From Acidobacteriaceae bacterium (GTDB lineage Bacteria; Acidobacteriota; Terriglobia; Terriglobales; Acidobacteriaceae): DNA of 58,375 nucleotides. Location: NCBI GenBank assembly GCA_003134435.1, contig PLBE01000116.1, positions 1 through 58,375 on the forward strand, read 5' to 3'. Under the pieces are notes generated by a model. That model made no database searches, had not been told where the DNA came from, and saw nothing but the letters and a program-made list of their open reading frames with translations. Of this stretch, positions 45,955 to 52,508 are shown piece after piece; the first letter of the stretch is position 1; every line of letters begins with the position of its first letter. Position numbers and translations under genes: made by a program.

Positions 45955-46908
45955 ATGAAAAACTTTCTAAACCCCCGCATCTTGTTCGCGAACTGGAGCA
46001 AACGCTACAACCTCGAACCGTCCCAGCCTCCCTGTGCCCTCGTTTCCTGCGCGCGTTCGCAATCATACTGGCAGCGGCTCCGCGACCGCCATCGGCCCGC
46101 CGGAACCATGCTGCAGGGCGCATTCTATTGCCAGCCCCAATGTCTGGAGATCGCTCTGGTCAATCAGCTCTCCCGCCTCCGCGTCATGGCCCCACCGCCG
46201 CAACCTTCTAACCGCATTCCCCTCGGCCTCCTCATGGTGGCTCGCGGCAAGCTTACCCACATCGAGGTCACCGCCGCCCTCGAAGCTCAGCGTCGCGCCC
46301 GTCACGGAAAAATCGGCGAATGGATCGAAAAATTGGGCTTCGCCACCGAGCAGGAAGTCACCGCCGCCCTCGCCGTGCAATGGGGATGCCCAGTCGCTAC
46401 TTCGGTCGATCCCTCCACCGTCCAGTCGCTCGGCAATATCCCTCTTCCTGTCCTGGAATTTTTCCAGATGCTCCCCCTGAGCTACGCTTCCGCCACGAAT
46501 ACCCTTTTCGTCGCTTTTGGAGAGCGCGTTGATCACGCTGCTCTCTACGCCATCGAAAAAATCCTCGGTTGCCATACTCAGCCCTGCGTTGCCGGACGCA
46601 AGGTTATCGCCCGCCAACTCGAGTCTTTGGGCCAGCTGTCCCGCCCCACCGACGTGGAATTCGGTCCCATGCACGACCTCGCTGAAATGGCCCGCATCGG
46701 CGCCAGCTACACCGCTCGGCTCAGCCCCGAAGAAGTCCGCCTGACCCGCATCGGCCGTTTCATCTGGCTCCGTCTCGATGTTCATCCCGCCGTCCGGCCC
46801 CGGTCGCGCTCCGTCACCACCAACCTGGTCTTCCGCCTGCCCTCGGAGTCCGCTCGCCCGCTCCATTTCACCCACCCCTTCCGTCAAGTGTCACCGCCAG
46901 TCTGGTAA
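45955..46908 (+). CDS. MshEN/GspE-N-like domain protein, possible c-di-GMP receptor
   Basis: Residues ~87-147 match the tandem 24-residue MshEN pattern of type II secretion/type IV pilus ATPase N-termini: 'PLGLLMVARGKLTHIEVTAALEAQ', a six-residue spacer, and 'KIGEWIEKLGFATEQEVTAALAVQWGCPV'. Some MshEN domains bind c-di-GMP. The RLG arginines are changed here to P and K, so binding is uncertain. No ATPase domain follows; the remaining ~170 residues resemble the rest of the GspE N-domain plus an Arg-rich tail. It directly follows the flagellar block on the same strand. Confidence 0.65.
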   Translation: MKNFLNPRILFANWSKRYNLEPSQPPCALVSCARSQSYWQRLRDRHRPAGTMLQGAFYCQPQCLEIALVNQLSRLRVMAPPPQPSNRIPLGLLMVARGKLTHIEVTAALEAQRRARHGKIGEWIEKLGFATEQEVTAALAVQWGCPVATSVDPSTVQSLGNIPLPVLEFFQMLPLSYASATNTLFVAFGERVDHAALYAIEKILGCHTQPCVAGRKVIARQLESLGQLSRPTDVEFGPMHDLAEMARIGASYTARLSPEEVRLTRIGRFIWLRLDVHPAVRPRSRSVTTNLVFRLPSESARPLHFTHPFRQVSPPVW

Positions 46909-50509: not shown

Positions 50510-51196
50510 TCAGGGCCGGAACAGCGCCGCCGGAATAAAGTCCAGCACAAACGCCCGTCTCTCCCGGATCCGCTCTACGGACAACGGATCCACCTTCGTC
50601 AGCATCTTCATGAGCGGCGCGGCACTGAAATAAAACACAATCACCGCCGCCACCGAAGGCAGAAAATCCATCGGATTCACCGCCCGGAATTCTCCCGCCT
50701 CAATCCCCTCCTGCAGTACGCCCGCGAGTTTCCCGAAGACCGGACGAAAATATTCCTTCGCCACGCGCTGCATACGCGCGCTGCTTTTTTCGCCCGATCG
50801 CATCCACTCCGCCTGCACTACCCTGGGGAATCGTGGATTGGCCGCAATGTAATCGAAGTATGCCCCGATATACTCCAGCATCTTTTGCCGCGGCGGCAAT
50901 GCGCTCTCCAGCACCGGCATCACCCGGGCTCGCATCCCGCCAAACACATGGTCGAGCACTGCTTCGTACAATGCATCTTTATCCTTGAAGTAGTAATACA
51001 ACAGCGCCTTGTTAACCTGCGCCCCCCGCGCAATCGCATCCGTGCGGGCCCCCGCCACTCCATGCTCGGAGAACTCCTCTACCGCCGCTTTCAGGATCGC
51101 CGCCCGGCTCTCCTCCGGCTTCCCTCGAGTCCCCAGGCGCGCGACCGGGCATTGTCGGGACCGGACGGAACGGCGCGCTCTCGCAGCTGTTTTCAT
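50510..51196 (-). CDS. TetR-family transcriptional repressor
   Basis: N-terminal HTH 'SRAAILKAAVEEFSEHGVAGARTDAIARGAQVNKALLYYYFKDKDALYEAVLDHVF' (~25-82) and an all-helical C-terminal ligand domain. ATG at 51196 is chosen because upstream codons run into the palindromic operator; a longer frame to 51307 is less likely. It precedes the exporter genes on the same strand and likely represses them and itself in answer to an exported compound. Confidence 0.9.
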   Translation of the reverse strand: MKTAARARRSVRSRQCPVARLGTRGKPEESRAAILKAAVEEFSEHGVAGARTDAIARGAQVNKALLYYYFKDKDALYEAVLDHVFGGMRARVMPVLESALPPRQKMLEYIGAYFDYIAANPRFPRVVQAEWMRSGEKSSARMQRVAKEYFRPVFGKLAGVLQEGIEAGEFRAVNPMDFLPSVAAVIVFYFSAAPLMKMLTKVDPLSVERIRERRAFVLDFIPAALFRP

Positions 51197-51199
51197 TGT

Positions 51200-51215
51200 A
51201 ATTAACCGGTTAGTT
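51200..51215. promoter_or_regulatory. Probable TetR operator between tetR and the phosphatase-GGDEF gene
   Basis: AATTAACCGGTTAGTT is an inverted repeat with one mismatched pair and a perfect ten-base core TAACCGGTTA. It lies four bases upstream of the tetR start, a typical position for autorepression. It could also affect the divergent gene, whose start is 176 bp away. Confidence 0.6.
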
Positions 51216-51390
51216 AGATTGTACTCGAGGCCAGGCCGTTCCACAAGCTCCCGTGAAGAAAAACACGTGCTATCGTGGTCTTGGCAACGCCGCTCAACCG
51301 TGACCACTGCCGCCTCCAGAATCGTGCCTGCAACAGGATCGCTGAACCCCAGGATGGCTGAACCCCGGCATCGGGTGAACTAGCATCGCT

Positions 51391-52281
51391 ATGATCAACC
51401 ACATCCTCAATAATCTCTGGCTGGGCAGTCAGCACGATGCCGACGAACTGGTTAGAAACAATCCCGAAATGATCACGGCCATCCTCAACGTTCGCGGACC
51501 CGATATTTATAGTCCCGCGGGGCGAGACCAGTCTGCCGAATTTCCCGGCAAAGCCTATAAGTGGATTCCCGCCGCCGATATCGGCATCCTTTATCCTGGA
51601 CATGTCGAGCAAGCTTCAGCCTGGCTGCGGGAACAGACCGGCAAACGCGAACGCATATTGATCCACTGTTATCATGGCATCTCTCGCTCTCCAGGATTCC
51701 TCGCCGCCTTCATGGTGGAGAGTGGAATCTCTCCCGACCTCGAAGCTGCCATCGCCGCGATCGCTGTCCACCGTCGCGTTCAGCCCGCGAAGCAAGTCGT
51801 ACCACCCGTTCAGCCTGTCGTCCTCATCTCCGCGTTGACTGGACTGCCGAACCGTCAGGCCTTCGACCAGGGCAAGGCCAGCCCCTTCACTGCCGTTGCC
51901 GACGTCTATCTCATGAAGGCCTTCAACGGTTTTTATGGCCACCTCGCCGGTGACAAACTGTTGCGCAGACTTGCAAATATCCTCATCACCGCTGGCCTCG
52001 ACGCTTACCACAGTGGCGGAGATGAGTTCTTGTGCAAGGGAGATTCTCGTCAGGAATTGACCGCTAAACTCTCCCATGCTCGGCAGTTGTTCCGCGAGCC
52101 ATTCGAGGTCTACGCCGACGGCCGCATCCAGAACATCGACGGCATCGATCTTTCCTTCGGAATCGGCCCGACCGTGGAGGCCGCGAAGGCTGCCTTGTTT
52201 GAAGCGGAAAAAACGACATCGGAACCACCCGAGTGGCTGCGTAGGATTGTAGGTGCGGGCGACCCTGGACGAGCTTGGTAA
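51391..52281 (+). CDS. Dual-specificity phosphatase fused to a GGDEF domain
   Basis: Residues 1-135 are a DSP/PTP domain: 'NNLWLGSQHDA' start, a candidate general acid Asp63, and the P loop HC-x5-R ('IHCYHGISRSP', Cys93 and Arg99). Residues ~143-280 are a compact GGDEF domain: 'ALTGLPNRQAF', metal Asp171 ('ADVYLMKAFNGFYGH'), guanine-binding Asn179 and Asp188 ('GHLAGDKLL'), GGDEF at 209-213, and the closing 'SFGIGPTVEAAKAALFEAEK'. The second Asp of the usual DxD is Tyr, and no RxxD inhibitory site is seen. No membrane helix is present, so it is cytoplasmic. Both catalytic sites look potentially active. Confidence 0.85.
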   Translation: MINHILNNLWLGSQHDADELVRNNPEMITAILNVRGPDIYSPAGRDQSAEFPGKAYKWIPAADIGILYPGHVEQASAWLREQTGKRERILIHCYHGISRSPGFLAAFMVESGISPDLEAAIAAIAVHRRVQPAKQVVPPVQPVVLISALTGLPNRQAFDQGKASPFTAVADVYLMKAFNGFYGHLAGDKLLRRLANILITAGLDAYHSGGDEFLCKGDSRQELTAKLSHARQLFREPFEVYADGRIQNIDGIDLSFGIGPTVEAAKAALFEAEKTTSEPPEWLRRIVGAGDPGRAW

Positions 52282-52508
52282 TCCCACCTGAAACCGAACT
52301 TTCCCCAGCGGCAGTGTAGACCATGCTTCCCCGCGAGGCCCCCGCCCTTACGAGCTTGGTTTGCACTTCGGCCAGATTGCCCCTACTACAGCGTCACTGA
52401 AAAGTTCTGGCGGCAGCCTGTCCCCCCAGGGCTCGCGGTTGAGCAACGCCAGAACGGAATGTCGAGCACGACCCTGCTCTCGTTTGCGGCCTCTTTCCAG
52501 TGAGCGGG
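52282..52508. other. Intergenic region, nothing recognised
   Basis: 227 bp between the convergent phosphatase-GGDEF gene and the M19 dipeptidase gene. No frame with family resemblance, no clear terminator and no repeat were seen. Confidence 0.5.

Follow-up and report, generated by a model that had tools for sequence, protein, structure and literature searches.

A dual-specificity phosphatase fused to a short, mobile-element-type GGDEF domain in one acidobacterial genus

Introduction

A protein in which a phosphatase is joined to a GGDEF domain raises the question of whether it is two enzymes in one, or a phosphatase that has borrowed a domain to another end. Such a protein is encoded in a 58,375-nucleotide stretch of contig PLBE01000116.1 (assembly GCA_003134435.1; hereafter the window), from a soil bacterium of the Acidobacteriaceae. 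A preliminary description, made from the letters and open reading frames of the window, considered both active sites apparently intact and offered two options: that dephosphorylation is coupled to cyclic-nucleotide synthesis, or that the GGDEF domain senses GTP and thereby controls the phosphatase. What that reader had missed was the type of the GGDEF half, which is the one found in the polyvalent proteins of phages. The reading favoured here, to which we assign a probability of about one half on the basis of sequence comparison, is that the protein is a phosphatase of the dual-specificity (DSP) type carrying a captured phage-type GGDEF domain, which would serve as a nucleotide-binding or dimerising module and would no longer be strictly catalytic.

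Domain architecture

The gene is a single open frame on the + strand, running from an ATG at 51391 to a stop at 52281 and encoding 296 residues. The profile search proposed in the preliminary description bore out its reading of a DSP and a short GGDEF domain within one frame, with both domains scoring just over the curated Pfam cut-offs: DSPc (PF00782) at residues 9–124 (E 3e-8; 34.0 bits against a cut-off of 33.5) and GGDEF at residues 148–239 (E 8.2e-6; 26.1 bits against 23.8). The NCBIfam model TIGR00254 gave the GGDEF domain 23.5 bits, under its cut-off of 37.4. A profile built from four orthologues matched solved structures for each half, among them the DSP DUSP5 at positions 4–127 (E 4.6e-9) and the diguanylate cyclase DgcZ at positions 147–247 (E 2.6e-6).

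Pfam and the matches to solved DSPs place the phosphatase domain at residues 1–134 (51391..51792, +). A linker of about 10 residues (135–144; 51793..51822, +), of the length first described and with 0/10 columns invariant among the four orthologues, leads to the GGDEF domain at residues 145–275 (51823..52215, +), a short domain recognised as a GGDEF by Pfam and as being of mobile-element type by trees. Every active-site residue named in the preliminary description is present in the window copy: the P-loop H92-C93-x5-R99 (51664..51687, +), the candidate general acid D63 (51577..51579, +), and, in the GGDEF half, D171 (51901..51903, +), N179, D188 and the GGDEF motif itself at residues 209–213 (52015..52029, +). 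By PleD numbering, D171 is taken to be the metal Asp, N179 the guanine Asn and D188 the guanine Asp, and D63 presumably acts as the general acid of the DSP.

Distribution and genomic context

The same architecture was looked for in other genomes, a check suggested at the outset, and among 101 genomes searched three further full-length orthologues were recovered, all in the window's genus. Those in genomes G005 and G002 are 65% and 61% identical to the window protein, respectively, and that in G006 matches in two pieces, at 68% over residues 2–222 and 53% over residues 215–296. With three full-length orthologues, the fusion is not a product of chance. It is present in 4/24 genomes of the genus, the window's own included, and no further full-length fusion was found in overlapping samples of 398 family, 396 phylum and 399 class genomes, where scoring was confined to five or six candidates from each genome. 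The DSP-GGDEF fusion is therefore real, conserved within the genus, and rare, and what is said below of conservation across the fusion family is drawn from n=4 known sequences. The earlier remark that no characterised enzyme joins the two domains agrees with the open-licence literature searched, in which no paper describing a DSP joined to a GGDEF domain was found; the mobile-type GGDEF is already known, and it is its join to a DSP that was not met there.

The fusion stands alone in the window, with a divergent TetR-exporter block on one side and an M19 peptidase on the other, both on the opposite strand. These neighbours had suggested a context of motility or surface signalling, a suggestion that did not withstand the neighbourhood comparison. 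The TetR gene is found in 22/24 genomes of the genus, 19 of them without the fusion, and among 20 TetR loci, inspected over at most ~1.5 kb upstream and over less in three cases, only that of the window's genome has the fusion, 4/20 carrying an ECF sigma gene similar to the one in G006 and the rest various other genes. G006, alone of the three orthologues, has the exporter/TetR side too, with the ECF sigma gene in between; G005 and G002 have none of the window's neighbourhood in the stretches compared, and no neighbour is common to all four copies. As the TetR gene is widespread without the fusion and the sites of the fusion vary, the motility context was rejected. In the nearby frame at 45955–46908, described as MshEN-like, Pfam recognised no MshEN domain even with E values of up to 1 allowed.

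On the other side of the gene, ruvA and the M19 peptidase occur together in 12/12 genomes having that peptidase (12/24 at the limit used), and in the stretches fetched the fusion adjoins them only in the window's genome; genes beyond M19 vary between genomes, and in G002 the peptidase and the fusion lie on one contig, ~227 kb apart. The genomic place of the fusion is thus variable, which may reflect transfer, or rearrangement together with loss. In Pfam, none of six neighbouring ORFs matched a phage or conjugation family above cut-off, and searches for a tRNA association, or for repeats marking a mobile unit around the fusion, led nowhere.

The sequences flanking the gene contain several smaller features. 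Some 50 bases past its stop lies part of a VapC-like PIN-domain gene, degraded by frameshift (52334–52455, −), the remainder of which was not found in the window; open versions of this gene (frames of 137 and 147 aa) lie near M19 in loci L129 and L131. An imperfect palindrome at 51194–51221, around AACCGGTT, lies in the gap separating the TetR gene from the fusion and is possibly a TetR operator. Just ahead of the start codon, a 16-base repeat forms a tandem pair (51334–51365).

Conservation of the two halves

H92, C93, R99 and D63 are identical in 4/4 fusion copies, and 75/134 columns of the phosphatase half are invariant among the four orthologues. Across the six orthologue pairs (NG86), dN for this half is 0.19–0.28 and dS is 1.04–1.58 in 3/6 pairs, the remaining pairs being saturated. 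The family proteins found to resemble this half most closely are acidobacterial DSPs that stand alone, encoded in ORFs of 135–173 aa, which share the Cys, Arg and Asp; an Asp aligns with D63 in 4/4 of those compared. HC-x5-R, the general-acid Asp and the profile fold are common to the fusion, these standalone proteins and human DUSP5, DUSP22 and DUSP10. The fusion differs in adding a C-terminal GGDEF domain and, relative to the four standalone DSPs aligned, in having some eight additional residues ahead of the general acid. Taken together, these likenesses predict that the fusion is an active phosphatase.

The GGDEF half is more variable, with 47/131 columns invariant. With the copies taken in the order window, G005, G006, G002, position 171 reads D, N, D, N, such that the metal Asp is present in 2/4; residue 179 is N, S, N, N, retaining the guanine Asn in 3/4; and the motif reads GGDEF, GGDEF, AGDKF, QGDEF, the full GGDEF being present in 2/4 and its Glu in 3/4. 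D188 and D211 are found in 4/4. The RxxD inhibitory site, which is common in cyclases but not needed, is missing in 17/17 rows looked at. For this half dN is 0.26–0.47 over the six pairs and dS 1.09–2.56 in 5/6, the remaining pair being saturated; saturation makes the dN/dS ratios of both halves rough, and within that limit both look constrained. Where a column is conserved in ≥12/13 mobile-type GGDEF rows, the fusions keep 20/28 catalytic cells, as against 136/216 other conserved cells, so the catalytic site shows neither special protection nor preferential loss.

This variability could mean that the protein is a plain phosphatase in which only the DSP matters, the GGDEF half being a decaying passenger without function. 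The differing catalytic residues and the smaller share of invariant columns would be expected of such a passenger, as would the 20-residue insert that follows the motif in G006, and decay does happen in the family: in genome G154 (locus L103), a mobile-type GGDEF has its motif broken up as YHDQTPFDMF, which demonstrates that loss occurs among these domains. However, all four GGDEF halves of the fusion are open and full-length, with no inner stop, dN is lower than dS wherever a pair allowed an estimate, and TGLPN, (A/S)GD, YH and GD-F are retained. We therefore regard a functionless passenger as unlikely, though it deserves serious consideration.

The same residues bear on the first option of the preliminary description, that of a bifunctional enzyme whose DSP dephosphorylates while its GGDEF makes a cyclic nucleotide. 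The window copy, with D171, N179, D188 and GGDEF in place and both domains over their Pfam cut-offs, speaks for it, and cyclase activity in the window's own strain, and with it bifunctionality there, is possible. Among the orthologues, however, the metal Asp is replaced by Asn in G005 and G002, the guanine Asn by Ser in G005 and the GGDEF Glu by Lys in G006, and the missing RxxD site and the want of a shared neighbour count against it as well. The statement that both active sites are intact hence holds for the window copy and, across the family, for the DSP; it fails for the cyclase site. Because the GGDEF-site residues vary in this way, coupled synthesis is unlikely as a conserved function, cyclase activity has presumably been lost in the fusion family, and a bifunctional enzyme is, in our estimation, quite improbable. 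The second option, a nucleotide sensor for the phosphatase, stays alive, albeit unproven.

Kinship and origin of the GGDEF half

Polyvalent proteins belong to phages and conjugative elements, and both GGDEF and RelA/SpoT domains are described among them in the accessible part of Iyer et al. (2017, PMC5512222). Scans with two proteins bearing GGDEF domains of this mobile type yielded 18 distinct IMG/VR contigs, some of them near-copies. The frames containing the domain are at least 650 aa in 15/18 contigs, reaching 2858 when measured from stop to stop and with several truncated where the stretch ends, and 201–360 aa in 3/18. Eight long ORFs of this type (six viral, two genomic) were compared with Pfam, and three carry LPD22, 2H-phosphoesterase or RelA_SpoT: LPD22 in L068, a 2H/2'-5' RNA ligase domain immediately N-terminal of the GGDEF in L065 and L072, and in L065 also a RelA_SpoT match below cut-off. 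L060 and L069 had no Pfam match whatever at the limits used. The ORFs of L065 (2130-10493) and L072 (1926-10439), on viral contigs and ~2800 aa long, with a 2H phosphoesterase directly before a KGDEF-type GGDEF, constitute a candidate nucleotide-signalling cassette.

Kinship was assessed with a tree of 56 rows and 146 columns, formed from four fusion sequences, 20 mobile-type rows (16 viral contigs and four genomes, identical rows removed), two phages of the Mesyanzhinovviridae and 30 host cyclases. The tree covers 16/18 of the viral contigs, and a G782 row (a 3142-aa ORF missed by the pattern) and the decayed G154 copy were left out. The four fusion GGDEF halves group with 19 mobile-type rows (support 99/99), and all 30 host cyclase rows lie on a separate branch (99/95). 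The two Mesyanzhinovviridae rows fall on the host side; neither the short GGDEF of Bordetella phage CN1 nor that of Pseudomonas phage Aergia groups with the fusion. Its nearest row is a standalone chromosomal gene of genome G115 (99/98). When the longest host row (L003) was dropped, the fusions still grouped with the mobile type (97/95), and the starred sets no longer included their pairing with the G115 gene. In AU tests, forcing the fusions together with the host group gave p 0.036, and forcing the mobile rows apart from the fusions was not rejected (p 0.14); capture from a phage is therefore not proven. Kinship of the GGDEF half to the mobile type is thus well supported, an origin inside that type is likely, and the half may have been captured from a phage.

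Within the family, matches to the mobile type with E ≤2.2e-28 (at least 100 bits) occur in 8/398 genomes, comprising the four fusions and G032, G115, G167 and G154; below these, scores drop to 65 bits. The first tree's nearest row to the fusion, at L063:6562-7053 (−), is a standalone 164-aa gene of KGDEF type with ordinary chromosomal neighbours and a tRNA-Gly gene close by.

Fusion and polyvalent-type GGDEFs have in common a short domain and the stretches GLDAYH..GDEF and ADFSYGIG-like. They differ in setting: the polyvalent domains mostly lie in ORFs of 650–2858 aa, as parts of giant multidomain proteins of phages or conjugative elements, and the fusion is a 296-aa protein joined to a DSP and outside any such giant. 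They differ also in motif, KGDEF being found in 12/13 mobile-type rows and in 0/4 fusion rows, which read GGDEF, QGDEF or AGDKF. That count comes from an alignment of 11 of the 18 viral contigs and two genome genes (L063, L007), again without the decayed G154 copy; its rows were chosen by patterns with GDEF or GD(E/Q)F, so conservation of GDEF is partly by construction. A Lys in place of the first Gly of GGDEF is unlike canonical cyclases.

That the fusion was inherited whole from a phage was rejected. A profile of eight DSPs recovered the fusions and its own four standalone DSPs, and no DSP among the ORFs of the phage stretches retrieved; full-protein scans of viral contigs found no fusion, pattern scans reaching close relatives only; and no locus in the phage and plasmid records covers 80% of the fusion query, the matches among those listed (20 of 26 and 20 of 48 records) falling in the GGDEF half.

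A role directed at phages themselves is very unlikely. The captured domain would find phage polyvalent GGDEFs and pair with them inactively, or act on their nucleotide products, and the close kinship with those domains, the 2H phosphoesterase of two relatives (one with the sub-threshold RelA_SpoT match), the patchy presence in 4/24 genomes at variable sites and the mixed pairing of some degenerate GGDEFs (PMC5635695, in part) all lend it some appeal. Loss or drift would produce the same patchiness, however, no PADLOC family matches the fusion protein, and no mobile-type GGDEF was seen in a long phage-like ORF within the genus.

Proposed role

The favoured reading remains a phosphatase that has borrowed a domain for its regulation, probably not a two-in-one enzyme, because the DSP site is kept in 4/4 copies and the cyclase site is not. 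The short GGDEF of giant phage proteins would have been joined to a DSP in one acidobacterial genus. It has kept the residues of the fold, whereas its cyclase site is not conserved strictly, and it most probably binds a nucleotide, dimerises, or both, possibly pairing with itself or with other GGDEF domains, and would thereby control or target the phosphatase. Such a regulatory role has parallels: cyclase GGDEFs work as dimers, and degenerate GGDEF domains serve as interaction modules, some forming mixed pairs in E. coli, according to the available text of PMC5635695.

The fusion can accordingly be set beside two kinds of host GGDEF protein. With canonical diguanylate cyclases of the PleD, WspR and DgcZ type it has the fold, by profile, and, in the window copy, the key residues; it differs in its separate branch, the missing RxxD and the variation of those residues among orthologues. 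With the degenerate GGDEFs of CdgI, PdeR and PdeK (PMC5635695, in part) it shares a kept fold and a catalytic site that is not strict, but its partner domain is a DSP instead of an EAL, and its interaction is hypothetical.

In the accessible part of PMC5512222, the purpose of nucleotide-signalling domains in phage polyvalent proteins is predicted only. As a small, expressible host protein, the fusion offers a handle on the partner or ligand of a mobile-type GGDEF. It also demonstrates that active-site residues intact in one copy are no proof of a kept site when relatives vary. It is a long shot that the host, having taken a polyvalent-protein GGDEF and attached it to a phosphatase, turns it against phages bearing that domain, through mixed dimers or by acting on a nucleotide signal; if true, this would be a phosphatase-based form of defence by domain mimicry.
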